A stretch of 48,755 nt of DNA from an uncultured bacterium. GTDB taxonomy: Bacteria > Planctomycetota > UBA1135. Under the pieces are notes generated by a model. That model saw only the letters and a list, made by a program, of their open reading frames with translations, was not told where the DNA came from and did not search any database. The DNA lies in contig CALFOT010000015.1 in NCBI GenBank assembly GCA_937919925.1, positions 1 through 48,755 on the forward strand. The letters are read 5' to 3'. Positions within the stretch are counted from its first letter, which is position 1. Each line of letters opens with the position of its first letter. A program made the translations under genes and the position numbers. Shown here piece by piece: positions 379-47,758 of this stretch.

Positions 379-999
379 TTATGCGCGAATCAAAACGGCG
401 CGCACCGGCGAGGCGTCGGCCGCTTCCAAACGCAGCGGGAAGGCGCACAGGGTGTACTCCCCGTCCGGCACCAGCGTGAGCACCAGACCTTCAAGAATGG
501 CCATATCTTTTGCAGCCACGGCGTGATGGCTCTCGAGATGCTGGTCTTCTTGCGGATCAATCGAGGGTGTATCGATGCCAACCAACTCCACTCCTTGGGC
601 AGAAAGGAAATGGATAAGCTCCGCGCTCAGAGCATTGAAATCCGAGTTCCACACCTCTGGATTCGGGAAACTTTCGGTATGAAATAACACACGTGGCGCC
701 GTGATCGGCTGCCGCAAATCTTGCGGTCGAATGCGCGCGCCGCGTGGCAAAGCCACCGAAATCACTTGGCACTGACCGTAGTAACGCTCTAATGCGCGCG
801 CTTCGATGCCTTGCCCATTGGCCACATAGTGATTCGGAGCATCCGCATGCGCGCCCAAATGAGTCGTGCAATGCATGCTGCTCAAAGTCAAGTGATCCCC
901 TTGATTCGTATCCAAACTAACTGAGCGAGTCCATGGCACATCCCCCGGCCACACCGCAGTGCGCGCGTTTATTAGCGGCGAGATATCAATCAGTTTCAT
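379..999 (-). CDS. kynB: Kynurenine formamidase (cyclase family)
   Basis: Hydrolyses N-formyl-L-kynurenine, the product of tryptophan 2,3-dioxygenase, to L-kynurenine and formate in the cytoplasm. The 206-residue protein has the cyclase-family metal signature HLGAHADAPNH (residues 47-57) and the late motif GIDTPSIDP, with an overall length typical of bacterial KynB. The ATG at 999 overlaps the stop of the RidA-type gene as ATGA, and the residues after it (MKLIDISPL) match the family N-terminus, so the longer reading is rejected. It is the last gene of the nine-gene tryptophan operon, whose first gene supplies its substrate. Family and step are well supported. The symbol follows the standard enzyme name. 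Confidence 0.85.
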   Translation of the reverse strand: MKLIDISPLINARTAVWPGDVPWTRSVSLDTNQGDHLTLSSMHCTTHLGAHADAPNHYVANGQGIEARALERYYGQCQVISVALPRGARIRPQDLRQPITAPRVLFHTESFPNPEVWNSDFNALSAELIHFLSAQGVELVGIDTPSIDPQEDQHLESHHAVAAKDMAILEGLVLTLVPDGEYTLCAFPLRLEAADASPVRAVLIRA

Positions 1000-1418
1000 T
1001 GCGGCACCTTGGCAATCACTTTGAATTCGACGGCAATGGGGGTCGGTAAAGCGCAAATGGCAAGGGTGGTGCGCGCCGCTTGCACGGTAGTGAAATGCTG
1101 GGCGTAGACTTCGTTGTAACCGAGGAAATCACGCTCCATGTCCACTAAAAACACCGTCACATCAAGCACATCTTCGAGGGTGGCGCCACAAGCTGCGAGC
1201 ACCGCTTTGATGTTGCCAATGACGGCTTCCGTTTGCGCACGAATGTCATAATCGCGCGGGTTTCCCTGAGCATCGCGGATTGGACCACCAGGAATCTCAT
1301 GCGTGCCCGCTTGCCGCGGACCAACTCCAGAAAGAAACAGCAAATCACCGTGGCGACGAGCATGAGGATAGGCGCCTACTGGATCGGGCGCATTGGACGT
1401 GCGTATGGAGTGACTCAT
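996..1418 (-). CDS. amnD: RidA/YjgF-family protein, probable 2-aminomuconate deaminase
   Basis: A 140-residue RidA-fold protein that most resembles the 2-aminomuconate deaminase branch (AmnD), which hydrolyses 2-aminomuconate to 4-oxalocrotonate and ammonia. Visible signatures are DIRAQTEAVIGNI (58-70), a VFLVDM segment near 90, FLGYNEVY near 98-105, and the conserved arginine R116 in ARTTLA, which binds the substrate carboxylate in this superfamily. It overlaps the upstream dioxygenase subunit (ATGA at 1418-1415) and the downstream kynB (ATGA at 999-996). Next to a semialdehyde dehydrogenase and a 2-aminophenol dioxygenase pair, the deaminase role is more likely than general imine clearance by RidA. 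The exact substrate is inferred from context. Confidence 0.75.
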   Translation of the reverse strand: MSHSIRTSNAPDPVGAYPHARRHGDLLFLSGVGPRQAGTHEIPGGPIRDAQGNPRDYDIRAQTEAVIGNIKAVLAACGATLEDVLDVTVFLVDMERDFLGYNEVYAQHFTTVQAARTTLAICALPTPIAVEFKVIAKVPQ

Positions 1419-2410
1419 GGTTCAAGGGTTGCGGGGGCAGCGGAAGCTTCCGCAGTAGCAATAACATTGCGGTCGCCATGGAAGAAACCACTGTCGTCTT
1501 CATCGTATTCGAGGCCGCCGCCAGCTCCTGGGTAAGGCAACAGACCAACAAGAGCCGCGCCAGTCCCATAGACCGGCTGGTAATCGAACACCGTGCCGCG
1601 GTAATCGTTGTTCTGCCCCATGGCTGCAGCCAACCACCAAATCGCTTTCATTTTCGAATCGCCGTTGGCTTGGCGTGAAAATTCACGGGAAAGTTGCGAG
1701 ACATCTTCGAGTCGGCCCGCTGCAAACAACTCGAGTAACTTGCGGTTCCATTCATCATCTTTCAAAGAATGGATACGATCCGTTGCAGGATCAATGTAAT
1801 CGGTGAACATACGATTCGACAACGCACTCACCCCAACTACGATGGCTTTGCGCCCACTCTTTTTGACTGCATCCAGAGCAGCCTTACCGAGCACCAAGGT
1901 TTCTTGACGGTCTGAATACACGTTGCAGGAAACGATGCACGCAGGAATGCGGTTGTTGGGGTTCAACAGCTTTAGTGCGGTGATGCTGCCCACGTCAATC
2001 GGAAAACCCTGATAAGCAACCGTACGTGCATGCAAACCGCGCGCATTGGCGCACTCGCGGTAAGTCTCCGCAAAGGCCGCATCCATACGCAGTTGGTAGC
2101 GCAGCGTGCCGAGCTCGTGAAAGTCTTCATCCACCACCCAAAAATGTGGCTCAGGATCGGCCTGGATTTGATGCCCAATGATGCTCACCCAGCGCGTGCT
2201 GAATAACAGCAGCAAATCAGCATCACTCGCTTCAATTTCTGCCCGTAGCCTGGCGTAAGAATCATGTAACGATTGCCATCCCGGTGACTGCTCGGGCGCC
2301 AACAAGGGGTGCGGTTGATTGGGCACTAAGTAGCCGCCCAGGATACGTCCGGTGGCAGCGGTGGAATCGGTGGCGCCACTGGCGTCGGTGGCAGGCTGGG
2401 TAGAGCTCAC
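1415..2410 (-). CDS. amnA: 2-aminophenol 1,6-dioxygenase-type alpha (non-catalytic) subunit, LigB fold
   Basis: A 331-residue member of the class III extradiol dioxygenase (LigB) superfamily, resembling the AmnA subunit of 2-aminophenol 1,6-dioxygenase. Where the catalytic subunit has HPPH this one reads NQPH, so an iron-ligand position is lost, as expected for the structural partner. Other AmnA-like stretches are VDEDFHELGTLRY, YQGFPIDVGSITA and VVGVSALSNRMF. It adds about 20 low-complexity residues at the N-terminus and an acidic, Gly/Ala-rich tail of about 35. Start: a GTG at 2410 overlapping the preceding stop (GTGA); the longer upstream reading is not family-like. It would form a heteromer with the next gene product. 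Confidence 0.75.
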   Translation of the reverse strand: MSSTQPATDASGATDSTAATGRILGGYLVPNQPHPLLAPEQSPGWQSLHDSYARLRAEIEASDADLLLLFSTRWVSIIGHQIQADPEPHFWVVDEDFHELGTLRYQLRMDAAFAETYRECANARGLHARTVAYQGFPIDVGSITALKLLNPNNRIPACIVSCNVYSDRQETLVLGKAALDAVKKSGRKAIVVGVSALSNRMFTDYIDPATDRIHSLKDDEWNRKLLELFAAGRLEDVSQLSREFSRQANGDSKMKAIWWLAAAMGQNNDYRGTVFDYQPVYGTGAALVGLLPYPGAGGGLEYDEDDSGFFHGDRNVIATAEASAAPATLEP

Positions 2411-3339
2411 ACCTGTACCTCTGCTTGATCCAATCGCCATTCCACGACTGCATTGCCCGTGCCGATCACGGTGCCGTAACCATGCACGATTCCACCCAGC
2501 TGCGGCACATCCATCGCCCCCATCAACCAAGTCAGGCTGCCGTCTTTACACTCTGATGCCGATTGTTCCATAAAATCGGGCATCTCGTCGAGAAGCTGCC
2601 GGTTACAGCCACGCTCGATTAAATCCAGCACATGCCGATCCCACTTCGCTTGGTTGGCGTTGTAGATATGCTCAAAGGCAGGGTCTTCCGGATCCTCAGG
2701 TTCCTCCGTGAAATGGCGATGACTCAAAGAACAGCTGGCCAACAGCAACGCCCGACGCCCAGTTTTCTCCACCGCGATTTTTGTAGCTTCCCCTAGCGCT
2801 AACATTTCTCGCTCGCCGACCTCATTGCTGTAGTCGAAGTAACTCCGCGCCGAGGAAATCGCCACAATGGGTAAATCAAAGGCTGGGCGGGTGAGGTAGC
2901 ACGAAGTGATGGTTCCATAATCCACGCGGAACTCTGGATTGCGCATCATGCTCATCACTAGGCCGCGCTGTTCTCCTTCCGCGTGAATCGCTTCAGCGAG
3001 TTCGACATCAATATGCAGATCAAAATTGAAACGAAACAAGTTCGGAAAAATCGGGTCAACCGAAAGCCCTTTGAAGTGCTCAACGCCAAGCAGATGATGA
3101 CCGCGACGGGTTTTCCAGTGCGGCGTATGCACAATCACCACATCGAACTCCGCCGCTTCTAAACTGCGGCGCATAGCCGCGTAACCAGCCAAAAGTCCTT
3201 GCCACGCCCCGGCTCCAGAAGCTTGTGGTTCGTTTTGGGGCGGGTTGGCGGCGAAGACTAAATGTGGTGGGTGCGGCGCCAGACAGCCGCGCACGATCCG
3301 CCCCTTCGTTTTCGAGTTATGGTTCACAGCTGAATACAT
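2407..3339 (-). CDS. amnB: 2-aminophenol 1,6-dioxygenase-type beta (catalytic) subunit, class III extradiol
   Basis: Fe(II)-dependent ring-cleaving dioxygenase; 310 residues and close to the AmnB catalytic subunit that opens 2-aminophenol to 2-aminomuconate 6-semialdehyde. Metal-ligand candidates are H23 in APHPPHL, H71 or H74 in VHTPHW, and E263 in SECKDGSLTW; H207 in SHRHF is the likely acid/base. Long AmnB-like runs include ANPPQNEP, SVDPIFPN, MMRNPEFRVDYGTIT and HGYGTVIGTGNAV. Two starts are possible: ATG at 3339, or GTG at 3327, which makes the GTGA overlap typical of this operon. The resemblance to 2-aminophenol enzymes rather than to cupin 3-hydroxyanthranilate dioxygenase is central to the pathway proposed here. 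Confidence 0.85.
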   Translation of the reverse strand: MYSAVNHNSKTKGRIVRGCLAPHPPHLVFAANPPQNEPQASGAGAWQGLLAGYAAMRRSLEAAEFDVVIVHTPHWKTRRGHHLLGVEHFKGLSVDPIFPNLFRFNFDLHIDVELAEAIHAEGEQRGLVMSMMRNPEFRVDYGTITSCYLTRPAFDLPIVAISSARSYFDYSNEVGEREMLALGEATKIAVEKTGRRALLLASCSLSHRHFTEEPEDPEDPAFEHIYNANQAKWDRHVLDLIERGCNRQLLDEMPDFMEQSASECKDGSLTWLMGAMDVPQLGGIVHGYGTVIGTGNAVVEWRLDQAEVQV

Positions 3340-4724
3340 ACGTTGCGGTCTTGCGAGAAAAATTCCATCGAGTAACGTCCCCCTTCGCGGCCAACGCCAC
3401 TTTGCTTCATGCCGCCAAACGGCACCCGGAAGTCGCGTTTATTCCAAGTATTGATCCACACCATGCCGGATTCAATGCGCTCGGCGAGACGATGAGCGCG
3501 GGTGAGGTTTTGTGTCCAAATCGAAGATCCCAATCCATACTCCACAAAGTTGGCCATTTCTAGTGCTTGTTGTTCGGAGTCAAAGGGGTGCACCGTTACC
3601 ACTGGACCAAAGATTTCTTCGGTGGCCACGCGGCAATCAATCGCCAACCCAGTGATGATGGTGGGTTCAAAAAAAGCTGACTTCTCGGGGCCAACTCGAT
3701 TGCCACCGCACACCACCGTGCCGCCTTCTTGGCGTGCCAAATCTACATATGCGGCTACTTTTTCGCGGTGCGCGAAAGAAATCAAAGAGCCTAAACTCTC
3801 GCCCGGAGTCCACGCTCCAGCAGCAACCTCGGCCACCAAACGTTCTACAAACTCAGCGTAAATAGAGCGCTCCACCAGTAAACGAGAACCACACAAACAG
3901 ACTTGGCCGGCATTAAAAAACGCGGCGCGGGCCACACCAGCAACCGCCAAGTCCAAATCGCAATCAGCGAACACCAAGCTGGGGTTTTTGCCGCCCAATT
4001 CCAGACTGATTTTTTTTAATAACGGCGCAGCGACGCCCGCAATGTGCTTTCCCGTCACCGTGCCGCCAGTGAAGCTCACTGCTTTGATATCTGGGTGTTG
4101 TACCAAAGCCTCTCCAGCTTCATGCCCAAGGCCATGCACCACATTCAACAAACCATTCGGCGCACCGACTTGCGTGAACACTTCGGCACACAGGGTGGCC
4201 GTTGTTGGCGTTAATTCCGACGGCTTGACCACCACCGCATTCCCCATGGCAATGGCCGGAGCCACCTTCCAGGTGAACAAATGGAATGGGAAATTCCACG
4301 GTGTAATCAATGCAACATTTCCGAGCGGCTGACGCAAAGTGTAATTGAAGCCATCCTCCATTTGGTGACAGGCCGTGGCATCATTGCGCAGCGCTGCCGC
4401 ATAGAAGCGCAAATTATCCAAGGCGCGTGGAATATCCCCATGGGTGGTCGCCTGGAGTGTTTTACCACTATCCATGGCCTCGGCGGCAGCGAACTCGGGG
4501 ATACGCTTGGCCACTGCATCGGCAACGGCAATCAGTAATTCACTGCGCTCCAATCTGGTGAGACGGCGCGCTGCTTGGGCCGCAGCAACAGCGTTGGCCA
4601 CATCGGTGCGATCACTCCGTGGAATCAAGCCGCAAACTTCCCCAGTTTTGGGGTTGACGTTATCAAGGTAAAGGCCGCTTGAAGGCGCTACTCCTTGGCC
4701 ATGAATCCAATTGTTCAATTTCAC
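3324..4724 (-). CDS. amnC: 2-aminomuconate 6-semialdehyde dehydrogenase-type aldehyde dehydrogenase
   Basis: NAD-dependent aldehyde dehydrogenase of 466 residues with complete catalytic machinery: N144 (TPWNFPF), E242 (LELGGKNP) and nucleophile C276. The sequence around the nucleophile, NAGQVCLCGSR, and the later segment RDFRVPFGGMKQSGVGREGG are characteristic of the ALDH branch that contains 2-aminomuconic and 2-hydroxymuconic semialdehyde dehydrogenases. It would oxidise the ring-cleavage product to 2-aminomuconate, the substrate of the RidA-type deaminase. The GTG start at 4724 gives a GTGA overlap with the asparaginase-like gene and begins at the usual family position (KLNNWIHGQ). A TTG at 4739 in the same frame is less likely. 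Confidence 0.85.
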   Translation of the reverse strand: MKLNNWIHGQGVAPSSGLYLDNVNPKTGEVCGLIPRSDRTDVANAVAAAQAARRLTRLERSELLIAVADAVAKRIPEFAAAEAMDSGKTLQATTHGDIPRALDNLRFYAAALRNDATACHQMEDGFNYTLRQPLGNVALITPWNFPFHLFTWKVAPAIAMGNAVVVKPSELTPTTATLCAEVFTQVGAPNGLLNVVHGLGHEAGEALVQHPDIKAVSFTGGTVTGKHIAGVAAPLLKKISLELGGKNPSLVFADCDLDLAVAGVARAAFFNAGQVCLCGSRLLVERSIYAEFVERLVAEVAAGAWTPGESLGSLISFAHREKVAAYVDLARQEGGTVVCGGNRVGPEKSAFFEPTIITGLAIDCRVATEEIFGPVVTVHPFDSEQQALEMANFVEYGLGSSIWTQNLTRAHRLAERIESGMVWINTWNKRDFRVPFGGMKQSGVGREGGRYSMEFFSQDRNVCIQL

Positions 4725-5824
4725 AAGTATTTCTCCCAATCAAAATCGTAGCGTTCCGTATCAGGATCCCATTCATCCCAAGTAGGAATACTTTCCAACT
4801 TTTTGAGATAAGCTGGCGGCACCACGCCGGGCACCAAAAAGGCTTTTTGACGATGCAAGGCGTATGGGTTGCGCAACTCAATCCCGAGCACGCCAAGTAC
4901 CGCGCGGGCGAGATACCAGGTTGCTTGAGAGTTCCATCCATGCGCAATTTTAATCACCACACCCAGACCTTGCGGGTAATCCGGATGGTCTATCGCCATG
5001 CCTAGCAAACCATCCGCGCCTTCCTTCGCCAGCACGCGACCGGCGGAAGACTTCAGAATGGTGGAATCCAAACGGTTGAACCCACCCACTAAATCCGGGT
5101 GGCGGAACATGGCCTCCCAGATCCAATCTTGCTGTTTATCGCGCACCAGCCCTGCATAGAGTTGTGCCAGTTCGCCCACGGTATTGGACATGGTGGGCAA
5201 ACCGCAACCATCGCGCGCAATGCGTAACGGCCGCCAAGCGGCGCCAAGATAAGCTTGCACTTGGTGCAAATAAGCTTTGAAAAATGGGTGCTGCGGCAGC
5301 AAATAGCCTACCTCTTCCCAACCCTTCAACTGGCAACCACGTAACAAAGCCGCGTGTTCGCCACTGCAGGTATGAAACCAACGCCGCGGTCGCCGTACTT
5401 GGCGGCCAAACTGAATCAGCGGCACATCCAGTGGGGTTTGCATCAGGCCCCAATCCTCTTCGGCAAGAATGGATTGGGCGGCGGCCACATGCGCGGCGTC
5501 ACCATTATGCGAGGCGACCGCAATCGCCCGCTGCTCCCAATTGAGTTCTGGTTCCAGCTCGTCGCAAAAAACCTTCATCATCAACGGCTTCATCATGCTG
5601 CGCCCGTAGCACAAAACATTGCCGCCGAAACTGTGGATAACCTCGTTGCCGTGCGACCAAGCCACAGCGCCATGGATGGTGGTTTCTGAAACTCCGTTAC
5701 GGCGAAAATCAATGAGGGGTTCCCATTCGACTTCGCGGCCAGTTGGGATTCCGGCAATCTGCTCTCCCAGAGGCGATTTGGGGTACATGGCATCGCGTGG
5801 GCGCGAAGTGGGCGACGTGCTCAT
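4721..5824 (-). CDS. Asparaginase II-like (Rhizobium-type, PF06089) hydrolase
   Basis: A 367-residue protein of the Asparaginase_II family, structurally related to serine-dependent amidohydrolases rather than to E. coli asparaginases. Family landmarks appear in order: RSMMKP with the Ser-x-x-Lys pair S76/K79, VASHNGDAAHV near 103-113, CSGEHA (153-158), DGCGLPT (205-211) and LAKEGADG around 270. In the Rhizobium enzymes, as I recall, zinc is held by Cys, Lys and Cys in CSGKH and DGCG. Here that Lys is Glu156, so the pocket differs. It overlaps its neighbours on both sides (ATGA and GTGA). A beta-aspartyl hydrolase in a tryptophan operon suggests an aspartyl ester or anilide derived from kynurenine as substrate (inference). 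Confidence 0.7.
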   Translation of the reverse strand: MSTSPTSRPRDAMYPKSPLGEQIAGIPTGREVEWEPLIDFRRNGVSETTIHGAVAWSHGNEVIHSFGGNVLCYGRSMMKPLMMKVFCDELEPELNWEQRAIAVASHNGDAAHVAAAQSILAEEDWGLMQTPLDVPLIQFGRQVRRPRRWFHTCSGEHAALLRGCQLKGWEEVGYLLPQHPFFKAYLHQVQAYLGAAWRPLRIARDGCGLPTMSNTVGELAQLYAGLVRDKQQDWIWEAMFRHPDLVGGFNRLDSTILKSSAGRVLAKEGADGLLGMAIDHPDYPQGLGVVIKIAHGWNSQATWYLARAVLGVLGIELRNPYALHRQKAFLVPGVVPPAYLKKLESIPTWDEWDPDTERYDFDWEKYL

Positions 5825-7059
5825 CTCGACACCACCTCAAGCGCGGGGATGACGTGATGCCGAAAGGCTTCCATGTTGCGCATCACACGCGGGCTATCGT
5901 GATTGTAAAAATCAAACCACAACATCAGACGATCTTGTGGATGGAAACGCTCCGTGATTTGCGCAGCAATTTCTTGAGGGTTGCCAACCAAAGCGTTTTC
6001 AGTAGCACCTGCAACTTTGTTCACATCAATCGTACCTTCCAAAGCATTCCAGTATTCCGAGAGCGCGGCGGCAGCTTCAGCGTGTGCGGCCGTTGATTGT
6101 TGCCCTGCAGTGAGGCCTTCTTCGGCGTTCAAGAACACCATGACCGTGCGCGGCATAAAAGCACGTTGCCAAGCACCGCCTGCGGGATGATAAGCCTTGC
6201 GCATACGTGTATGCGTATCATTGATGACGTCTTCTGCGGTAATCGACAGGTTAAAGACTTGCACCGGCTGCATTTGATTCAACTCTTCCTGCAAAGCGGG
6301 ATCATGTGAGCCAACAACAAGTTGCAATAATTCACGACGCCACCGCTGCGGAATTATTTTTAATTTCTCAAAATCCCAGCGTTTGGCAAATGGAATCCGA
6401 TTGGGAGCTTTCCCACCATGGGTGGCCTCCCACGCTTGCTGCACTTTTTGCCAATCGAGTTCACTGCGAAAGTGGCTGCGGTCTAATGCAATATCTGGGG
6501 TTTGAGTGCTGTCCAACACATCACCGCGCAGTAATTGCAAGAAGATGAAGCAGGCCTCGCGAAACATCTGCCCTTTGTAAGCAGGCCAAGCAGCTTGTTC
6601 CACGGCGTCACGATAATCCACACCATAAGCCCGGTTCATGAACTCAAAGCGCCCCGCGGCAAAACCAATATGGATGCGACGCTTTTCTTCACGATCCAAA
6701 CCATGCAAAGCACAAAAGGCGGCAACACGCTCTGCTGCCGCAATGGGCCCGCCATTACAGACGATATTCATCACTGCCGCACCCGCTTCAATATTTTGAG
6801 TGCAAGCAAAAATTTTATGCGCAAGTTGGCAGAAATCGACGTTCAATCCAACCTCTCCTTGAAAATGAGGTACCACCGGCCGCGTGTTGTGCTTTTGAAC
6901 CTCCGTGGAGAGATGCGATTCGGCAACCCAAGCGCAGCCATAACCCAAGCGGTCAGCAAGTTGAACTTGCTCAAAAAAATTACCAAACATGGTGGCTTCA
7001 TCGGGCATCTTGCCGGCCACTGGAGTTTGACAAATCGAAAAGAAGACGTCGAAATCCAT
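5821..7059 (-). CDS. LLM-class (luciferase-like) flavin-dependent monooxygenase
   Basis: A 412-residue luciferase-like TIM-barrel monooxygenase that would use reduced FMN and oxygen. Early barrel motifs are visible: MDFDVFFSI at the N-terminus, FFEQVQLADRLGYGCAWVAESHLS (split at about residues 28-51), then a flavin-side segment AAVMNIVCNGGPIAAAERVA. The family includes aromatic hydroxylases and type II Baeyer-Villiger monooxygenases, so sequence alone does not give the reaction. It sits in a tryptophan operon that lacks kynureninase and kynurenine 3-monooxygenase. I propose that it oxidises the aryl ketone of kynurenine; ring hydroxylation is the main alternative. The ATG at 7059 lies 2 bases after the SDR stop; the longer reading adds 28 unrelated residues. 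Confidence 0.75.
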   Translation of the reverse strand: MDFDVFFSICQTPVAGKMPDEATMFGNFFEQVQLADRLGYGCAWVAESHLSTEVQKHNTRPVVPHFQGEVGLNVDFCQLAHKIFACTQNIEAGAAVMNIVCNGGPIAAAERVAAFCALHGLDREEKRRIHIGFAAGRFEFMNRAYGVDYRDAVEQAAWPAYKGQMFREACFIFLQLLRGDVLDSTQTPDIALDRSHFRSELDWQKVQQAWEATHGGKAPNRIPFAKRWDFEKLKIIPQRWRRELLQLVVGSHDPALQEELNQMQPVQVFNLSITAEDVINDTHTRMRKAYHPAGGAWQRAFMPRTVMVFLNAEEGLTAGQQSTAAHAEAAAALSEYWNALEGTIDVNKVAGATENALVGNPQEIAAQITERFHPQDRLMLWFDFYNHDSPRVMRNMEAFRHHVIPALEVVSR

Positions 7060-7061
7060 AG

Positions 7062-7853
7062 CTAGATGGAGTTTAAGCGCCCGCCGTCGACTGCAATCGA
7101 TTGGCCACGGATAAATGCACCTGCCGGGCTTGCCAAAAAACAAGCCAGTGCAGCAAGCTCTTGCGGATCTCCCAAACGACCTTCGGGAACGGTGGCCATC
7201 CAGTTGGCTTGCACATCACTCTCACTGATTCCCTGGCGCCCCGCCATGGTACTTTTTAGTGATTCCAGGCGATCCGTAGCCGTAAAACCAGGAAGCAGGT
7301 TGTTGATGGTAATTCCAGGAGGTAGCTCCTTGGATAGTGTTTTGGCCCAAGACGCCATTGCGCCGCGCACGGTATTCGAAACGCCAAGCCCAGCAATGGG
7401 CTCTTTCACCGAAGTGGAAATCACATTCAAAATACGTCCGTAACCAGCAGCCTTCATGCCCCCCACCAAACGCTGCACCAAAAAATGCGCGGCAAATAAA
7501 TGGCGCGCAAGTGGCTTTAAGAAATCTTGCTCGCTGGCTTCCAACAGCGGCCCACCGGGAGGACCACCACTGTTGTTCACCAACACATGGACCGTACCCA
7601 GTTCCGCAATCAAATCATCAGCCGCCGCAGAAAGCGCCAGTCGATCTTCCAAATCAACCGCGTACACAGCAACGCCAGCAGCACCTGCTGCACGACAAAG
7701 TTCGGCAACGGCTGTGAGCTTTTCCGTGTTGCGTGCTAACAAGGACAAGCTGGCTCCAGCCGCAGCCATGCTGAGAGCGATTTCGCGACCAATGCCGCTA
7801 CTTGCGCCACAAATCAGAGCGTGCCGGCCACATAACGAAGTAGAGAGACTCAT
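7062..7853 (-). CDS. Short-chain dehydrogenase/reductase with non-canonical active site
   Basis: A 263-residue Rossmann-fold SDR. The nucleotide-binding motif is GASSGIG (16-22), the NNSG motif is at 93-96 followed by GPPGG, and a catalytic-type serine lies in VISTS. The YxxxK pair is absent: the aligned positions read S159 and R163 in GVSNTVRGAM. A subgroup of SDRs with SN-x-x-R at this place is known, so this is an atypical subfamily rather than a decayed gene, and the frame is intact. It overlaps TDO (ATGA) and precedes the LLM monooxygenase by 2 bases. Its step is unclear: a reductase supporting the monooxygenase or an enzyme acting on a later intermediate are both possible. Confidence 0.8.
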   Translation of the reverse strand: MSLSTSLCGRHALICGASSGIGREIALSMAAAGASLSLLARNTEKLTAVAELCRAAGAAGVAVYAVDLEDRLALSAAADDLIAELGTVHVLVNNSGGPPGGPLLEASEQDFLKPLARHLFAAHFLVQRLVGGMKAAGYGRILNVISTSVKEPIAGLGVSNTVRGAMASWAKTLSKELPPGITINNLLPGFTATDRLESLKSTMAGRQGISESDVQANWMATVPEGRLGDPQELAALACFLASPAGAFIRGQSIAVDGGRLNSI

Positions 7854-8701
7854 GCTTTTGCCAATTTAGTCCAGTTCGAATTCCGAACTTCCCACAACTC
7901 GGGGAAGAATCGCAGCGGTAGACGGGATTCTAGGAAAGGCACGCCGCTAGAGCCGCCAGTGCCCTTTTTGCCGCCAATCGTACGTGACACCATCAGGATG
8001 TGCGCGGCGCGAAAAATCGACCACATGGTGTCGAGGTCGAGCAAGGCTTCGCAGGCCAACACCCAGTGATACTCGGTTTTTGCATCTTGATAAAGCTCGC
8101 GAAAGACCCCAACCAACTCATCATTCATTTGGTGGGTTTCGCTCAGTTCACGCTGCAAAACTTTCTCTGGGACCGGATACCCCCCTCGCGCCATCGCGTG
8201 TAAAAAGCAGTCATAAAGACTCGGTGCCTCAAAGCGCGCTCGGAGCCGAGCCAACTCCTCGGGACGGCCTTCAAAGAACTGAAAGAACCACGGATCCCGC
8301 TGGCCACAAGCAAACTCCATTTCACGAAACTGAACCGATTGGAAGCCGCTACCTGTACCTAGGGCTTCGCGGAACCCAGCGAACTCATCGGGCGTCAAAG
8401 TGCCCAGCAGCTGAATCTGCTGAGTCAGACAGGTGATAATGGCTTGCACGCGCTTCAACACTTTAAGAGAACGGGCGACGTCGTCATGATTCAAAAAATT
8501 GACCATCAAGCCAACTTCGTGAAGTGCCTCTTTAAACCAAAGTTCAAAGCTTTGGTGGATCACGATAAAAAACATTTCATCGTGATGCATAGGATTGCTC
8601 CGCAGTTGCTGAAGCGCAGTAAGTTCCGGCACTTTAAGGTAACTGTTGTAATTCAGTTCCTCCAATTTCAAGCGGTCGTAATCAGCAAGTCGTTCCGTCA
8701 T
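7850..8701 (-). CDS. kynA: Tryptophan 2,3-dioxygenase
   Basis: Heme dioxygenase that opens the indole ring of L-tryptophan to N-formyl-L-kynurenine. The 283-residue length is typical of bacterial TDO. Landmarks: YLKVPELTALQ near 21-31, FFIVIHQSFELWFK with distal H49, SGFQSVQFREMEF (118-130) with the substrate-carboxylate arginine R126, proximal heme ligand H234 in RAAHILMVSR, and the GTGGSSG loop at 247-253. It is the first gene of a nine-gene minus-strand operon ending with kynurenine formamidase, so the operon begins by making kynurenine. A TAAACT hexamer ends 9 bases before the ATG, suggesting a leaderless transcript. Confidence 0.93.
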   Translation of the reverse strand: MTERLADYDRLKLEELNYNSYLKVPELTALQQLRSNPMHHDEMFFIVIHQSFELWFKEALHEVGLMVNFLNHDDVARSLKVLKRVQAIITCLTQQIQLLGTLTPDEFAGFREALGTGSGFQSVQFREMEFACGQRDPWFFQFFEGRPEELARLRARFEAPSLYDCFLHAMARGGYPVPEKVLQRELSETHQMNDELVGVFRELYQDAKTEYHWVLACEALLDLDTMWSIFRAAHILMVSRTIGGKKGTGGSSGVPFLESRLPLRFFPELWEVRNSNWTKLAKA

Positions 8702-9181: not shown

Positions 9182-10560
9182 GTTGGCCCAGCGATAACGA
9201 CAACCGTCGAGAGGATTCACCCTACGGCAAGAGCCCGCGCCGGGAGAGCCCCTATCGCGGTGGTGACCGCTCTGCTGATCCTCAGCAGCAACGCGGCCAC
9301 CTTGGTACTGGGCATTACCGCAATGACCCACGTGGCGGTGGTCACTACCGTCGGCAGCAACGGGATGAACGTGGCGAAACGGTGGTGCGTATGGAGCCTT
9401 GGGTGGCGCTGCGCGGACCGATGCGCGGTCCACGGGTGTGGAGCGGCGATGTCGATCGTTGTTCCAGTCGTTTGCCAAGTGGTGAGCTTGCTGCAGTCTA
9501 TGATCAACACAACGACTTCCGCGGTTGGGGCTTTTGGCACCCGCAATCGCGTATCGCAGTACGCATTGTGTCACGCGAAACCACCAAGCCCGATGATGCC
9601 TGGTGGCAAGCTCGCGCGCGTTCCGCTGCCGAACGACGCCTGCAAAATCCTGAGGTACCAAACGAAGTTTGCCGCATCCTTCATGCCGAGGGCGATGACT
9701 TCCCGGCTCTCACCCTAGACCGTTATGGCGATGTTTTAATCGGTGAAGTTTACAGCAAGCCAATGGCCGATATTTTCCAGATGGTGTTGCCCACTTTCCA
9801 TGAAATTTTAGGCACGAGTGAGTATCGCCTGTGCTTTGATGAAGCGTCCGCGCGCGCCGAAGGGGAGCAACCCTTTGAGAAATCTTCCGCTGGCTGCCCG
9901 CCGCGTTTGCAGTTTCAAGAAGAGGGCATCACCTACGAAGCATTTCTATCCGCTGGCCATAAATCAGGTTTTTTCTGCGACCAACGCGAAAACCGTGCTC
10001 GTTTAAAAGCGTTGGTGGAGCGCCTAGTTGCGCAAGGCAACCCACCCAGCGTGTTAGATGTGTGCTGCTACACCGGGGGCTTCGCGCTGAATGCCGCAAT
10101 GGCCGGGGCTGCAGAAGTGCGTGGTATTGACCTAGATGAAAAAGCTGTCGAGCAAGCCACACGGAATGCCAACATTAACCAGTTACGCAACATCAAGTTC
10201 ACTCACGCGGATGCATTCAGTTATCTGCGCACCTTAGCGGGCAACGAACGCCAGTACGATATTGTGATTGTTGACCCGCCGAAATTCATCCGTACGCGGC
10301 GTGATTTCGATGAAGGCCAAGCGCGTTACCACGACATCAACAAACTCGCGATGCCATTAGTGAAGCCAGGTGGATTCCTGATTAGCTGCTCATGCAGTGG
10401 TTTGTTTGGACCGCTGGAATTCCAGGAGACCATGCGCCGCGCTGCACGTTTACGCACAGTCCGCATTTTGCGCGAAACAGGTGCCGGCCCAGATCACCCG
10501 GTGCGCATCGATTTCCCCGAGGGCCGCTACTTAAAAGCTCTGTGGATGCAGCTGGACTAA
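9178..10560 (+). CDS. RlmI-like class I SAM-dependent rRNA (cytosine) methyltransferase
   Basis: A 460-residue protein in three parts. Residues 1-70 are polar and rich in Arg, Gly and Gln, with repeated RRESPYRG- and GHYR-like stretches, and probably disordered. A PUA-like region follows (about 72-135), then an RlmI-type domain with LTLDRYGD and AGHKSGFFCDQRENR. The C-terminal Rossmann methyltransferase has SAM motif VLDVCCYTGGFALNAA near 290 and the catalytic-type VDPPKF near 365. The family makes 5-methylcytosine in 23S rRNA. It is coupled to the EVE gene by a 4-base overlap. The basic N-terminal extension is not part of the E. coli enzyme. Confidence 0.82.
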   Translation: MSWPSDNDNRREDSPYGKSPRRESPYRGGDRSADPQQQRGHLGTGHYRNDPRGGGHYRRQQRDERGETVVRMEPWVALRGPMRGPRVWSGDVDRCSSRLPSGELAAVYDQHNDFRGWGFWHPQSRIAVRIVSRETTKPDDAWWQARARSAAERRLQNPEVPNEVCRILHAEGDDFPALTLDRYGDVLIGEVYSKPMADIFQMVLPTFHEILGTSEYRLCFDEASARAEGEQPFEKSSAGCPPRLQFQEEGITYEAFLSAGHKSGFFCDQRENRARLKALVERLVAQGNPPSVLDVCCYTGGFALNAAMAGAAEVRGIDLDEKAVEQATRNANINQLRNIKFTHADAFSYLRTLAGNERQYDIVIVDPPKFIRTRRDFDEGQARYHDINKLAMPLVKPGGFLISCSCSGLFGPLEFQETMRRAARLRTVRILRETGAGPDHPVRIDFPEGRYLKALWMQLD

Positions 10561-10599
10561 GGCGTTTGGGGTCTTGGCGACATCGCTGGGACCCGTGCT

Positions 10600-12174
10600 T
10601 TACAACACCACCTTATAACCGATGAAGCGCTTGGCACCTTGCTCCGGCGCAAAAAGACGCAGGGCAAGAATTTCTTCACGCCCATCACCATCAAAATCGC
10701 GTATGGTCATAGCGTGCGGTTCACTCCAATCCTTGAGATGGATCCGATAATTGGGCTCCACTCCCTCCGCCACGGAAGTCATCGCCGACGTGCGCCCCAG
10801 AGTCCATTGGGTGAGTGCGGAAATTTCAACCTCCAGCCCCCCCTCTCCAGATAAGGTTTGCTGCAAAAACTTTTCGATGGCGCCATGCAGTACGGCTTCA
10901 TCGGAAATCAAATTAAGCCACACCAACAAGGTGCCATCGGCATCCAGCGTGACCAAATCCGTGTGCACGCCATCGCCATCGGCATCACACATCCGCACGA
11001 TCTTACGCCGCAGGCTGGAAAACTGCTCCTTCTCGTCTTTATACACCGAAAGCAGACTATCCCCTTGCAACTTGGCTTCGCGCTCGCGAAAAACACGAGT
11101 CTCAAAGCGCCCATCTCCACGCCCTCGAAACACTAAGAAATCGAACTTGATTTCCCAAGAGAACAAAGCGGCCTTAATCAAAGTGCCGACGCCGAGATCC
11201 TCCACGCGCACCAGTACTAAATCCGGGATTTCATCGGCATCAATGCGCGCTGCATAGATATAAAAAACATTGCCGCGTACTTTCAAAGGCGGCCTGCTGT
11301 TCTCCAAGTTGACACCATTTTCGTCTCCCAGAAAAACACGGACTACGCCATTGGCAAGAATCATGACATCCAGATCACCATCGCCATCTAAATCGGCCCA
11401 TTTATCTTGCACCAAATACTTCACCGAGCGCGTGAGGTTGCTTAAGTCGACTTTCATATCGCTCATGTCGGCGCGAAAGCGAGTGAGGTCTAAAACGCGC
11501 GTTGGCTCCGACGGAAAACCTTCCGCTGCTAATACATATTGACGCACGCTGCTGCCATCGTTCACGACTAAATCTGGGCGGCCATCACCGCTGACGTCTT
11601 CGGGGTTGAGGCGTGGCACCACCAAATGGCGACTGACGTTGGACATCAAGCCACCGCCAGTATTCAAGCGCAAGGTTGAGAGGGCACCCAGATTCGGGCC
11701 AGGCACAAAACCGGCTGCACTTCCCATCCACAATTGAATCGCATCGCCAACCGGTAAACTGATATCCAGCAAACGGTCCCCATTGAGATCGTAAAGGAAA
11801 TCGGCAGGGTTACAGCCATGCGGAGGCATGCCACCTAAGTTGGATGCAAGCGGCTCCGAAAAAGACAGCACATTGTCCAGGAGTTGCAGTTGATACAAGG
11901 TGCTGCCATCCACTAAGACGATAAATTCCTCCGTACCATTACGGTCAAGATCAGCCAGAGTCCACAAAGTAGCCTCGCCTGGAATTTCAATTTTGGGCCC
12001 ATCCACGGCCTCCATGAGGCGAACTGTGCGGTTTTCAATCGCCAGCAAATGCCCCACTTTGGAGCCGTCTAAACTAGCAACCGCCAAGTGTTGTACTTGA
12101 ACACCCAAATCCACCGCAAGCGGTTCTGGGGTGGGCAGCTGCAAGCAGGCGGCGGCGAGGAAGCTAGTAATCAT
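10600..12174 (-). CDS. Exported FG-GAP/VCBS repeat protein (second of pair)
   Basis: A 524-residue protein with a short hydrophobic N-terminus (MITSFLAAACLQL) and many FG-GAP/VCBS-type blades, for example DLNGDRLLDI, DVSGDGRPDL, DLDGDGDLDV, DADGDGVHTDL and DFDGDGREEI. These Asp-rich loops bind calcium and build a beta-propeller, so the protein is probably periplasmic or surface-exposed. Its start overlaps the stop of the first FG-GAP gene (ATGA at 12174-12171). It ends a five-gene operon headed by an ABC exporter. Its stop faces the methyltransferase stop across 39 bases with no clear terminator. No enzymatic motif was seen. Confidence 0.8.
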   Translation of the reverse strand: MITSFLAAACLQLPTPEPLAVDLGVQVQHLAVASLDGSKVGHLLAIENRTVRLMEAVDGPKIEIPGEATLWTLADLDRNGTEEFIVLVDGSTLYQLQLLDNVLSFSEPLASNLGGMPPHGCNPADFLYDLNGDRLLDISLPVGDAIQLWMGSAAGFVPGPNLGALSTLRLNTGGGLMSNVSRHLVVPRLNPEDVSGDGRPDLVVNDGSSVRQYVLAAEGFPSEPTRVLDLTRFRADMSDMKVDLSNLTRSVKYLVQDKWADLDGDGDLDVMILANGVVRVFLGDENGVNLENSRPPLKVRGNVFYIYAARIDADEIPDLVLVRVEDLGVGTLIKAALFSWEIKFDFLVFRGRGDGRFETRVFREREAKLQGDSLLSVYKDEKEQFSSLRRKIVRMCDADGDGVHTDLVTLDADGTLLVWLNLISDEAVLHGAIEKFLQQTLSGEGGLEVEISALTQWTLGRTSAMTSVAEGVEPNYRIHLKDWSEPHAMTIRDFDGDGREEILALRLFAPEQGAKRFIGYKVVL

Positions 12175-13661
12175 CTGCGGTAGGAGAGGTGTATTTCGAG
12201 TTTGCCATCGCGGCTAACGATGAAATCGCCGATGCCATCAGAATTTAAGTTGAGGACTTCCACCTCCGCCTGCAAAGCATTGATGGGGATTTCTGCTGCG
12301 ATTTCATCGGCGATTTTCACACCATTGCTATTGGGCAAGAAACGGCGGATTTCAAGACTACCCGCAGTGGAACGCTCAAGTAAGTTTGGCTGCCCATCGC
12401 CCGTTAAGTCTGCAACAAACGTATCCATGGAAACCAAGGATTCGAACTCATCGACTTGAAACGTGCGGCTCCAAGCGAAGGCTGCGCGGGTCGACCAAGT
12501 ACCAAGATTCGAAAGAAAGCCGGTTACTTTGTGCTCCACTTGCGGCGCACCACGCCCCAGCAAGCCTAGGTCTAGAACCCAGCTTGACAAACAGATGTCG
12601 CGAACACCGTCCGCGTTGAGGTCAAAAAAGTAGATCCATAAAAAGGTGCTATCCACCTGTAAAAAAACATCGGATTCTTCGAGGGAATCACGCTTTGCGA
12701 TGTCTAAATAAACTCGCGTTTGCCACGGCCTTGTTTGGCGCAAAACATCCGCGCTACTGCGAACCAGCAACAGATCGGCCGCAGCTCCACCTCCAAGGTC
12801 TACCCATTCCACCTGCTCAAAATCCGAATCTTTCGAGTTGGGCAACTCAATAATCTGAGAAGCCTTGGCAGGAAAGTGGCCGCTGTCATCCTGCAAATGC
12901 AGGAACAACTCCACGCCACGCAAATAGGAAAGATCTAATCGGCCATCACCATCCACATCGGCCCACACCGGAGTTGGCAGGGATTCATCTGAAAAAAGTG
13001 CTGGAGGCCGTGCGATGACTCCCAATTCTTCATTCGGCAAAAATAAATCGCCCAACTCTTGGCTGCTGATGGTCGTGCGCACTAGGCCACCCAAATAATT
13101 GCCTGCGGCAACCGGTGGACGGTCACTACCAATCGATAAATCGATGCGCCCCAGTGTGGTGCCAGCGGAATCGATGATTTCGAAACCGGTGGTGGTGACC
13201 AGAGCGACCTCTGGGTGCCCATCCCTATCGATATCTGCCATCCCTTTCCACAGCGGCAAGGCGGTAGAAGAAGGCAAGTCTAGTAGCATGCTGGCCTTAC
13301 TGAGTAGCTGCGAACGCCCCTGAGAATTGCGCACGTAAGCACCACGTGCCGCCAACAACAAAATCTCGCAACCCGCTTCTTCTTCGCCTTGCAGAAAATC
13401 TCCCACATTCCAAGCTACGACACCTGCCGCCATTTCAATATGCTCATCATAGGTAGCGGAGAACACCGTACCTTGATGTTGATAATGGATATCAATGTAA
13501 CGTTTGCCATTATCAGCCAGAATGGCCATGTAGAGATCTAAATCACCATCGCCATCCGCATCGGCAAAAGTGCGGGCACCTAATTGTTTACCCGAAGGCT
13601 GCACCCAGGAAGCCAAGTGACTGGCTTGCTGGCAAAGAACAAAAACAGCAGCAACAAACAT
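12171..13661 (-). CDS. Exported FG-GAP/VCBS repeat protein (first of pair)
   Basis: A 496-residue paralogue-like partner of the next gene, starting with a weak signal peptide (MFVAAVFVLCQQASHLASW) and followed by calcium-loop repeats such as DADGDGDLDLY, DIDRDGHPEVAL, DVDGDGRLDLSY, DLNADGVRDI, DLTGDGQPNL and NLNSDGIGDFIV. A beta-propeller is expected. I place the start at the ATG at 13661, which forms TAATG with the stop of the PDZ gene; an in-frame GTG at 13673 is less likely. The role is unknown; ligand display or protein-protein contact at the cell surface is usual for this fold. Confidence 0.8.
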   Translation of the reverse strand: MFVAAVFVLCQQASHLASWVQPSGKQLGARTFADADGDGDLDLYMAILADNGKRYIDIHYQHQGTVFSATYDEHIEMAAGVVAWNVGDFLQGEEEAGCEILLLAARGAYVRNSQGRSQLLSKASMLLDLPSSTALPLWKGMADIDRDGHPEVALVTTTGFEIIDSAGTTLGRIDLSIGSDRPPVAAGNYLGGLVRTTISSQELGDLFLPNEELGVIARPPALFSDESLPTPVWADVDGDGRLDLSYLRGVELFLHLQDDSGHFPAKASQIIELPNSKDSDFEQVEWVDLGGGAAADLLLVRSSADVLRQTRPWQTRVYLDIAKRDSLEESDVFLQVDSTFLWIYFFDLNADGVRDICLSSWVLDLGLLGRGAPQVEHKVTGFLSNLGTWSTRAAFAWSRTFQVDEFESLVSMDTFVADLTGDGQPNLLERSTAGSLEIRRFLPNSNGVKIADEIAAEIPINALQAEVEVLNLNSDGIGDFIVSRDGKLEIHLSYRR

Positions 13662-46060: not shown

Positions 46061-47758
46061 TTAACAATGCTGCCATGGAGAGTCAGGCACCAATTCTGGG
46101 GAAATACGCAAGCCACCAGGAGTGGTTTCGAGTCGGCTATGCACGCGCCATTGCTCGTTCCTCTCCGGGAAATCACTGCGGAAATGGGCGCCCCTGGATT
46201 CTTTGCGGAACGTGGCGGAACGCGTAATCACTTGCGCCACCTGAACCATATTCATAACTTCCACACCCTCTGGGGTGAAGGGACCGAGTCGTTCCAAATA
46301 ATTGGCCCAGGTATCAAGGCGCTGCTGCGCATCTAGTAGGCCAGCAGCATCGCGTTCAATACCAACCTGACGCCACGTCAACGACTTCAAGGAGTAGGTC
46401 ATATCGGTTAGGTTTAGCTCGGCCGCGGGAGCACCATAATCCTCTGATAAATGCGGCGACAAAAATCGACGTCCGCTATGTTTTTGCTCCAAAATCCTGG
46501 CTCCGACTAAACGCCCATGGACCAAGCCCTCGAGTAAGGAGTTCGATCCCATACGATTGGCGCCATGGAATCCTGTGGAAGCACATTCTCCAACCGCGTA
46601 AAGCCCCTCCAAACTTGTGCGTCCCTCGAGGTTGGCCGCGATGCCGCCGACAAAATAGTGCACCGCAGGGCGTACCGGAATGGGATCCACTCCAATGCTG
46701 ATACCAAACTCCGAAGCAATCCTTGCAAGCGCCGGAAAACGTTTGGCCGGTTCCGCAACTCGCGCTAAATCAAGAAAAACATTGGTATCACCAGCATCCA
46801 CAATACGCCGGAAGATGGCTCGGCTGACCACATCACGCGGGGCTAAATCGGCATCCGCATGAAACTCAGGCATGAAGGCGTAGCCCTGGCGATCACGCAA
46901 CACAGCACCTTCGCCGCGCACCACTTCCGAAATCAGAAAACGCGCCGCACCAGCGAGGTACAAAATGGTGGGATGGAACTGGACAAACTCCAAATCGCGC
47001 AGAGTGGCGCCGGCACGTAACGCCATGGCGAGGCCGTCGGCAGTGGCCAACTGCGGATTGGTTGTTTCCCGAAAAATTTGCCCGCCACCGCCCGTGGCCA
47101 TCACCACGGAATCTGCCTCAAATAAAACTGGGGTGTAAATCCCATCAGAGCCTTGCCGGGCAAGAGCCACCAAGCCGCAAACCGCGCCATCGGCATCTTT
47201 CAACAACTCCACTGCAGTGGTGTAAGAATAAATGTCAATGTGCGGATGCTGGTTGGCCCGCGCCGCAAGTACCCGCTGTAGCTCTTTGCCGGTGGTGGTG
47301 CCGCCACTGTGCAAAATGCGCGGCATGCTATGTCCACCTTCCTTACCGAGGCTAAATCGTCCGGTTGATTCACGATCAAAAGCCATGCCCGAATCAGCCA
47401 ACCATTCCATCGCTGCCGGTGCCGCAGAAGTAATCGCGGCGACAATGAGTGGATCCGAAAGCCCGTACCCTAGATTCAAAGTATCGCTTGCATGCAGGAC
47501 CACGTCATCGTCGGGCCCGACGGCTGCCGCGATCCCTCCCTGGGCATAATGAGTATTGGTATCGGTAATCCTTCCTTTAGAAAGCACCATCACGTGCCCA
47601 CCAGTTTCTGCAGCAGCCAAAGCCGTGGCTAACCCGGCTACGCCCGATCCTACCACCAAAACATCCGCGCGGAAAACCGGCAGGCGGCGCAAAGGATATG
47701 GCATGCGTCCCAAGGGCGAACCAGGAAGGCTTTCGAAAACGGTTGACTCAGAGGTCAT
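46061..47758 (-). CDS. nadB: L-aspartate oxidase
   Basis: FAD enzyme that oxidises L-aspartate to iminoaspartate, the first step of de novo NAD synthesis. The 565-residue protein has an N-terminal FAD motif VVGSGVAGLATALAAAE, then THYAQGGIAAAVG, HSGGTTTGKEL, and the C-terminal active-site block GLYAVGECASTGFHGANRMGSNSLLEG (split). Arg and His substrate residues are in the conserved HYFVGGI region. TAGAAT lies nine bases before the ATG. The presence of nadB shows that NAD is made from aspartate, so the tryptophan operon need not serve NAD synthesis. Confidence 0.95.
   Translation of the reverse strand: MTSESTVFESLPGSPLGRMPYPLRRLPVFRADVLVVGSGVAGLATALAAAETGGHVMVLSKGRITDTNTHYAQGGIAAAVGPDDDVVLHASDTLNLGYGLSDPLIVAAITSAAPAAMEWLADSGMAFDRESTGRFSLGKEGGHSMPRILHSGGTTTGKELQRVLAARANQHPHIDIYSYTTAVELLKDADGAVCGLVALARQGSDGIYTPVLFEADSVVMATGGGGQIFRETTNPQLATADGLAMALRAGATLRDLEFVQFHPTILYLAGAARFLISEVVRGEGAVLRDRQGYAFMPEFHADADLAPRDVVSRAIFRRIVDAGDTNVFLDLARVAEPAKRFPALARIASEFGISIGVDPIPVRPAVHYFVGGIAANLEGRTSLEGLYAVGECASTGFHGANRMGSNSLLEGLVHGRLVGARILEQKHSGRRFLSPHLSEDYGAPAAELNLTDMTYSLKSLTWRQVGIERDAAGLLDAQQRLDTWANYLERLGPFTPEGVEVMNMVQVAQVITRSATFRKESRGAHFRSDFPERNEQWRVHSRLETTPGGLRISPELVPDSPWQHC

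Follow-up and report, generated by a model that had tools for sequence, protein, structure and literature searches.

Contig CALFOT010000015.1 (assembly GCA_937919925.1), a stretch of 48,755 nucleotides from an uncultured Planctomycetota bacterium of the UBA1135 lineage that we refer to in full as the window, carries a cluster of nine genes that we believe serves to degrade tryptophan by an unusual route. The nine open reading frames (ORFs) occupy positions 379-8701 on the minus strand, and they overlap or nearly touch one another. Read from the 5' end of the operon, they encode a tryptophan 2,3-dioxygenase (TDO), a short-chain dehydrogenase/reductase (SDR) protein, a luciferase-like flavin monooxygenase (LLM), a hydrolase, an aldehyde dehydrogenase (ALDH), an AmnB-like and an AmnA-like protein, a RidA-family protein and a kynurenine formamidase (KFase). 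The corresponding Pfam families, in the same order, are Trp_dioxygenase, SDR, Bac_luciferase, Asparaginase_II, Aldedh, LigB (twice), Ribonuc_L-PSP and Cyclase. Five of the junctions (TDO/SDR, LLM/hydrolase, AmnB/AmnA, AmnA/RidA and RidA/KFase) are 4-base overlaps, the SDR and LLM genes are separated by 2 bases, and the AmnA gene begins with a GTG at position 2410 that lies on the stop codon of AmnB.

Table 1. Genes of the tryptophan operon and one further gene of the window, with assignments and the matches behind them
Gene product	Positions	Strand	Matches
TDO, first gene; predicted to convert tryptophan to N-formylkynurenine	7850..8701	-	PF03301 E 5.6e-51; TIGR03036 275.9 bits (cut-off 390.7)
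SDR protein without catalytic Tyr/Lys, Rossmann motif intact	7062..7853	-	PF13561/PF00106
LLM (bacterial-luciferase-like) flavin monooxygenase; putative kynurenine Baeyer-Villiger monooxygenase	5821..7059	-	Bac_luciferase
Asparaginase_II-like Ser-Lys hydrolase; putative aryl-aspartate (ester/anilide) hydrolase	4721..5824	-	PF06089 E 1.4e-47
2-Aminomuconate 6-semialdehyde dehydrogenase (AMSDH)-like protein, start codon uncertain	3324..4739	-	4i1w E 4.1e-130
AmnB-like 2-aminophenol 1,6-dioxygenase beta (catalytic) subunit	2407..3339	-	8ihg_A E 1.1e-97; 3vsg_B E 2.1e-96
AmnA-like 2-aminophenol 1,6-dioxygenase alpha subunit	1415..2410	-	7txy_A E 4.7e-54
AmnD-like 2-aminomuconate deaminase, Rid family	996..1418	-	6izh E 1.6e-24
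KFase (arylformamidase, cyclase family), last gene, ATG at 999	379..999	-	PF04199 E 1.5e-16; TIGR03035 202.9 bits (cut-off 223.05)
nadB, L-aspartate oxidase (context only)	46061..47758	-	TIGR00551 526.5 bits (cut-off 452.75)

The initial annotation of this locus had proposed a nine-gene operon with TDO and KFase at its ends, and the ORFs, their spacing and their Pfam families all agree with that description. Its other structural claims stand as well: the Bac_luciferase and PF06089 matches support the LLM monooxygenase and the Asparaginase_II-like hydrolase as the two extra enzymes, and the nearest solved structures fit a class III dioxygenase pair of the AmnB/AmnA type, a dehydrogenase of the AMSDH type and an AmnD-like deaminase. 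TDO and KFase are divergent members of their families, because their matches to NCBIfam equivalog models fall below the curated cut-offs (Table 1).

It is the dioxygenase pair that discriminates between the pathways to which such an operon might belong, since AMSDH and the deaminase fit the canonical kynurenine route and the 2-aminophenol route alike. The solved chains nearest to the AmnB-like protein are beta subunits of 2-aminophenol 1,6-dioxygenase (8ihg_A, then 3vsg_B), and when alpha subunits are set apart the next family is HpaD, at an E value of 2.8e-7. Its neighbour is closest to an alpha subunit of 2-aminophenol 1,6-dioxygenase (7txy_A); each member of this adjacent LigB-fold pair is thus closest to its own type. 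The putative iron ligands, which we presume to occupy the His/His/Glu positions of the 3vsg family, are conserved in the AmnB alignment as His23 (36/36 rows), His74 (36/36) and Glu263 (35/36, with one gap). For the dehydrogenase the best solved chain is the AMSDH 4i1w, followed by a betaine aldehyde dehydrogenase (E 2.8e-110), while the best NCBIfam model, 2-hydroxymuconic semialdehyde dehydrogenase, is matched below its cut-off. The Rid protein is nearest to the 2-aminomuconate deaminase 6izh, by a modest margin over the next chain (E 1.6e-21). AmnBA, the dehydrogenase and the Rid deaminase are together predicted to take 2-aminophenol to 4-oxalocrotonate.

At the other end of the pathway, TDO and the formamidase are predicted to make kynurenine from tryptophan. 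The step from kynurenine to 2-aminophenol calls for one oxygenation and one hydrolysis, and besides the SDR protein exactly one oxygenase and one hydrolase remain for this gap, which is why we place the LLM enzyme and the Asparaginase_II relative there. The likely task of the LLM flavin monooxygenase is to insert an oxygen atom between the ring and the ketone of kynurenine. Because this ketone is attached to an electron-rich aryl ring that carries an ortho-amino group, the aryl group is expected to migrate, giving the 2-aminophenyl beta-ester of aspartate, and this ester may or may not undergo an O-to-N acyl shift to N4-(2-hydroxyphenyl)asparagine. Ester and anilide should both suit a Ser-Lys enzyme of the asparaginase type, since either is an aspartyl beta-acyl compound, and the hydrolase would split the aryl aspartate into L-aspartate and 2-aminophenol. 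The overall equation balances: kynurenine + O + H2O = aspartate + 2-aminophenol. The SDR protein, with neither Tyr nor Lys at its catalytic places, might reduce FMN for the LLM enzyme. Such a route would merge with the canonical kynurenine pathway at 2-aminomuconate semialdehyde, and it would bypass kynurenine 3-monooxygenase (KMO), kynureninase, the cupin dioxygenase, the decarboxylase and the intermediate from which quinolinate forms. From the content, order and conservation of the genes, their co-occurrence and the conserved residues of their products, we infer a Baeyer-Villiger oxidation of kynurenine followed by hydrolysis of an aryl aspartate, including the substrates, the products and the direction of migration. 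We are fairly confident that tryptophan catabolism through kynurenine to 2-aminophenol and aspartate, the most economical reading of the operon, is also the right one.

By sequence and by fold, the solved structures related to the hydrolase come from Rhizobium etli, namely the asparaginases ReAIV and ReAV, to which it is 19-25% identical in fold alignments. In a profile alignment, Arg47-Ser48-Lys51, Ser80, Cys135, His139, Tyr156, Asp187, Cys189 and Lys263 of ReAV all fall on identical residues of the hydrolase. Both tandems (Ser48-Lys51 and Ser80-Lys263) and Arg47 are kept across the family, with R75, S76 and K79 in 57/57 readable rows and S105 and K267 in 56/56. The ReAV studies describe as essential both Ser-Lys tandems with Arg47 (PMC12292245) and the residues Cys135, Asp187 and Cys189 (PMC11024299); in the latter work, K138A retains part of its activity and H139A loses no speed relative to the wild type. 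The position of the zinc ligand Lys138 is taken by Glu in 23/23 rows of the hydrolase alignment (A2), and in a wider set by Glu in 54/56 readable rows and by Gln in the other two. The equivalents of the zinc site Cys135/Lys138/Cys189 are accordingly Cys, Glu and Cys, each in 54/56 readable rows. Since Lys138 is replaced by Glu and the zinc site is thus not kept, we did not assign the protein as a class 3 L-asparaginase and regard it as a homologue only. The enzyme thus retains the catalytic equipment for acting on an aspartyl amide or ester but differs in its zinc site. Class 3 enzymes as described in PMC8602277, PMC11024299 and PMC12292245 share with it the fold, the Ser-Lys tandems and the equivalents of Arg47, Cys135, His139, Tyr156, Asp187 and Cys189; unlike ReAV, it has Glu at the place of Lys138, is only distantly identical and has 2-aminophenol genes as neighbours. 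Among the nine gene products it has the highest median identity to the window protein (72%, range 62-91%, 54 loci). The two hydrolases with Gln (loci L057 and L069) have the zinc-site Cys/Glu/Cys changed together to Ser/Gln/Asp, and both keep the Ser-Lys tandems.

A search of Protein Data Bank sequences with the single LLM protein gave no match, and with a profile only the luciferase 8cbb was found (E 0.0044). By fold it is luciferase-like, with luciferases nearest and a type II Baeyer-Villiger monooxygenase, diketocamphane monooxygenase, lower in the list. Type II Baeyer-Villiger monooxygenases such as the diketocamphane monooxygenases 4uwm and 5aec (PMC8706424) have their luciferase-like fold in common with the operon enzyme, but luciferases rank nearer to it.

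An alignment of LLM proteins (A1) was scanned against one genome per species, which confirmed 137 relatives; the best 80 were kept as loci, and partner genes were sought by tblastn within these fetched loci, many of which are cut by contig ends. The SDR gene was found in 63 of the 80, the hydrolase in 59, the dehydrogenase in 57, AmnB in 35, AmnA in 33 and RidA in 30. When the count is limited to the 43 loci that extend 8 kb or more beyond the LLM gene on its downstream side, the figures are 36 for SDR, 36 for the dehydrogenase, 32 for the hydrolase, 25 each for AmnB and AmnA, 23 for RidA, 18 for the formamidase and 15 for TDO. LLM, SDR, hydrolase, dehydrogenase, AmnB and AmnA occur together in 29/80 loci, which by record title come from Planctomycetota, Myxococcota, Deltaproteobacteria, Acidobacteria, Latescibacterota, Krumholzibacteriota and a Thermoplasmata archaeon, among others; the 80 loci overall also include Poseidoniales and others by the same measure. 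All nine genes are present in 12/80 loci, and in 11 of these (L001, L003-L005, L007-L009, L018, L021, L029 and L044) they share a strand and follow the order of the window. In the remaining locus, L067, which comes from a Thermoplasmata archaeon, the SDR gene stands at the opposite end. Because the partner genes recur in loci that were found by LLM alone, the gene arrangement is not a product of chance. Two records titled Klebsiella pneumoniae (L058 and L066) carry LLM and dehydrogenase genes; these titles do not fit, and the records are probably mislabelled environmental bins.

Whole genomes give a broader view of which other kynurenine enzymes accompany the operon. We searched the 48 genomes whose loci lie on contigs of at least 20 kb, and in addition a sample of 294 Planctomycetota genomes; the two sets overlap, with 7 of the 12 hydrolase genomes of the larger sample recurring in the smaller by identical hydrolase coordinates. 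TDO is over its cut-off in 48/48 LLM genomes, including those where it is missing from the fetched locus. With the hydrolase as query, 47/48 genomes give a match of some kind and 44/48 give one of 64-91% identity; one of the 44 (G040) has an internal stop codon in the gene. Kynureninase is over its cut-off in 0/48, and 8 of these genomes have some match, seven of them at 20-43 bits. Within the Planctomycetota sample, TDO was found in 136 genomes, the hydrolase in 12, AmnB in 12, LLM in 15, and kynureninase in 109 at E<=1e-30, of which 32 are over the cut-off. The hydrolase set and the AmnB set are the same 12 genomes (E<=1e-30). These have TDO in 12/12, LLM in 12/12 and kynureninase in 0/12 at E<=1e-30, compared with kynureninase in 102/124 of the other TDO genomes at the same threshold (Fisher p 1.1e-8). 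TDO accompanies LLM in 15/15 genomes of this sample, against 136/294 overall. A similar alternation is visible inside one family (f23), where the two states occur in different genera: kynureninase is missing from G182, G197 and G226, which carry the hydrolase, and G066, G166, G212 and G239 have kynureninase over the cut-off and no hydrolase; of the latter four only G239 has a TDO match.

Kynureninase, a part of the canonical kynurenine pathway, is not found in the window's genome, where the model TIGR01814 has 0 matches (2.89 Mb, 87.4% complete, such that absence is not provable), and it is likewise missing from the 12 hydrolase genomes at the threshold given above. The initial annotation had noted that the operon has no kynureninase, KMO or cupin 3-hydroxyanthranilate dioxygenase; the cupin family PF06052 also has 0 matches in the window's genome. 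PF06052 is over its cut-off (25 bits) in 0/60 genome entries, a set that holds 7 genomes twice, and reaches 20-24 bits in 4/60. KMO is not among the nine operon genes by Pfam. FAD_binding_3, which we take to be the Pfam domain expected in KMO, has six matches of 23-73 residues in the window's genome, two of them over the 22-bit cut-off and none of full length. This is a general domain model, not specific to KMO, and such short matches seem to reflect the reach of its dinucleotide-binding motif. The genome survey that the initial annotation had called for thus gives the pattern it anticipated: the genes for hydrolase, AmnB and LLM keep company with TDO in genomes that have no recognizable kynureninase or cupin dioxygenase, with G011, G033, G037, G044 and G149 as exceptions. 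We judge it likely, for the core pathway alone and with the SDR protein left aside, that bacteria and archaea widely use a route in which an LLM kynurenine Baeyer-Villiger monooxygenase takes the place of kynureninase, followed by an asparaginase relative with an altered zinc site, and in which 2-aminophenol is an ordinary intermediate of amino-acid breakdown.

Several observations nevertheless weigh against this interpretation. TDO was found in only 27/80 and the formamidase in only 25/80 of the fetched loci. The LLM fold does not dictate a Baeyer-Villiger reaction, because enzymes of this class are also known for hydroxylation, epoxidation and the cleavage of C-S and amide bonds; F420 enzymes appear in the fold list of the operon protein as well. 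Among the genomes, G011 lacks the hydrolase and combines its LLM locus with the only full-length kynureninase match of the 48 LLM genomes (235.5 bits against a cut-off of 246.4), although the contig of that locus (L017) stops beside the LLM gene. G033, G037 and G044 have TDO and LLM together with hydrolase paralogues that are only 27-30% identical, and G188 and G231 (LLM 57-58% identical), which apparently are G044 and G037 again by their identical TDO coordinates, lack AmnB as well as the hydrolase. In G149, which has no hydrolase, TDO occurs with an LLM of 43% identity and a kynureninase match that passes the cut-off. A kynureninase match is also missing in 22/124 TDO genomes without the hydrolase, and the strict kynureninase cut-off gives 0/12 against 27/124 (p 0.12), from which it follows that the significance rests on full-length kynureninase matches below the cut-off. 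The Fisher tests ignore phylogeny, and the 12 genomes fall in 6 families. PF06052 matched 0/14 control genomes, such that its sensitivity is not shown and its absence is the weaker evidence. Finally, 4-hydroxy-2-oxovalerate aldolase does not reach its cut-off in the window's genome (44.2 bits against 286), nor did any of 14 control genomes pass it.

Three other accounts of the operon deserve consideration. If the LLM enzyme hydroxylated the ring of kynurenine in place of KMO, the hydrolase might replace kynureninase, AmnBA might open 3-hydroxyanthranilate, and a decarboxylase might be encoded elsewhere. LLM enzymes are capable of hydroxylation, and the canonical route could equally well accommodate TDO, the formamidase, AMSDH and the Rid deaminase, but we consider this account unlikely given the distance that separates 2-aminophenol 1,6-dioxygenase beta (about 1e-97) from HpaD among the relatives of AmnB. 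In addition, a decarboxylase for 2-amino-3-carboxymuconate semialdehyde is not among the nine genes, the rest of the genome not having been searched for one, and a Ser-Lys hydrolase of the amidase type is, judged from established chemistry, ill suited to the C-C cleavage of an aryl ketone. The same two enzyme classes would also be used if the alkyl side migrated in the Baeyer-Villiger step, which would give O-anthraniloyl-serine and, through the hydrolase, anthranilate and serine. We attach hardly any credence to this outcome: the migratory aptitude of a primary alkyl group is below that of an electron-rich aryl group, the kinship of the hydrolase to asparaginase points to an aspartyl substrate, the operon has no anthranilate-processing gene, and to our knowledge anthranilate is not a substrate of AmnBA-type enzymes.

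The low counts of TDO and the formamidase in the fetched loci might instead indicate that the operon degrades external 2-aminophenols or aryl-asparagines and that these two genes merely travel along with it. This seems very improbable to us, since TDO is present in every one of the 48 LLM genomes and, within the Planctomycetota sample, in all 12 genomes that have hydrolase and AmnB and all 15 that have LLM, when fewer than half of that sample has it, and since the full order of nine genes from TDO to KFase is kept in eleven loci.

The initial annotation had left the SDR protein unexplained. SDRs use a catalytic Tyr for carbonyl reduction; FMN should be able to take a hydride from NAD(P)H with no such residue. 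The Ser-Tyr-x3-Lys motif of a classical SDR dehydrogenase is not kept in the operon protein, and we rejected that identity: by spacing from Ser146, the places of Tyr and Lys are taken by Ser159 (63/64 rows) and Arg163 (64/64). The Rossmann motif (Gly16, Gly20, Gly22, Arg41 and Asp67) is present in 63/64 rows, with one gap, and the nearest solved chain, 5va8, which is named only as an SDR protein, has the same Tyr-less LGLSN stretch. Among 14 gene families recurring near the clusters, Pfam revealed no flavin reductase. Because Tyr and Lys are lost, the Rossmann motif is intact and a flavin reductase is not among these recurring neighbours, we tentatively suggest an NAD(P)H:FMN reductase that supplies FMNH2 to the LLM enzyme, a proposal we regard as possible and no better than its competitor. 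That competitor, to which we give equal weight, is a reductase of the lower pathway acting, for example, on 2-aminomuconate or 4-oxalocrotonate towards 2-oxoadipate. The lack of a recognizable aldolase of the usual 4-oxalocrotonate branch in the window's genome would fit such a role, as would the distance of the SDR gene from LLM in L067 and the statement in PMC13151070 that animals can take 2-aminomuconate to glutaryl-CoA. On the other side, the SDR gene adjoins the LLM gene in most loci, and the 63 loci that have it include many without AmnB.

Among established pathways, the canonical kynurenine route of Burkholderia and Pseudomonas leads through TDO, formamidase, KMO, kynureninase, 3-hydroxyanthranilate dioxygenase, 2-amino-3-carboxymuconate-6-semialdehyde decarboxylase (ACMSD), AMSDH and a deaminase, reaching 2-aminomuconate on the way. 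The operon has the start (TDO and formamidase) and homologues of AMSDH and the Rid deaminase in common with it, with LLM, the hydrolase and AmnBA in place of KMO, kynureninase, the cupin dioxygenase and the decarboxylase, and its predicted side product is aspartate instead of alanine and CO2. The 2-aminophenol pathway of the amn genes belongs to degraders of nitrobenzene and aminophenol such as Pseudomonas AP-3 and Comamonas. There (structures 8ihg, 3vsg and 7txy), AmnB, AmnA, the semialdehyde dehydrogenase and 2-aminomuconate deaminase are adjacent as in the operon, where 2-aminophenol would come from tryptophan and not from a xenobiotic; by Pfam, the nine operon genes do not include the decarboxylase, hydratase or aldolase genes that are usual in that pathway. 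A further parallel is the 3-hydroxyanthranilate cluster of Aspergillus terreus, for which PMC7842363 describes genes for a Baeyer-Villiger monooxygenase and an SDR protein beside AMSDH, and a putative 2-aminomuconate deaminase in related clusters and not in A. terreus itself. According to the same study, that monooxygenase, which is not an LLM protein, binds FAD and carries the sequence motif of Baeyer-Villiger enzymes, and the cluster, unlike the operon, keeps 3-hydroxyanthranilate dioxygenase and ACMSD and stands in a salicylate context.

Searches aimed at a route from kynurenine to 2-aminophenol found no report of it in the open-licence literature of PubMed Central, a scope in which reports in subscription journals could be missed. 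If the route is real, there is another way to dismantle kynurenine, with two enzyme activities that have had no prior assignment, in hosts that include Planctomycetota, Myxococcota, Acidobacteria and Thermoplasmata archaea by record title. Where these proteins carry names at present, they are called luciferase or alkanesulfonate monooxygenase-like, and L-asparaginase, and genome-based statements on asparagine use or on missing tryptophan degradation could then be wrong. The cell would have aspartate returned in place of alanine and CO2, and would avoid the quinolinate-forming intermediate. 2-Aminophenol is known as a breakdown product of xenobiotics; the operon route would offer a natural starting point for the 2-aminophenol dioxygenases found in degraders of such compounds, whose amn genes may descend from it. 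The nadB gene elsewhere in the window makes NAD synthesis from aspartate likely for this genome; it also suggests that the cell can make NAD without the operon route.

Some additional features of these loci are of interest in their own right. In three loci (L051, L059 and L071, with LLM ORFs at 9971-11233, 9971-11233 and 239-1645), an LLM homologue stands in the fetched locus without other cluster genes; the genomes of these loci, and likewise G188 and G231, have TDO and no close hydrolase or strong kynureninase match. Such solitary homologues possibly represent a second kynurenine-oxidizing lineage with another downstream route. The TDO proteins that accompany the pathway are of at least two kinds, a divergent one at about 115-145 bits to PF03301, to which that of the window belongs, and a longer one at about 180-240 bits, with a few weaker or stronger. 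Six archaeal loci (L050, L060, L061, L063, L064 and L079) have one gene family upstream of SDR, whose member at L063:8415-9167 is formyltransferase-like (PF00551) and perhaps handles the formyl group of N-formylkynurenine. Positions 10600-16391 of the window encode an ABC transporter pair, a PDZ-type protein and two long proteins in which DxDGDG stretches of the FG-GAP type occur, and relatives of this block (families c1, c3, c7, c6 and c2) adjoin the operon in several Planctomycetota loci.

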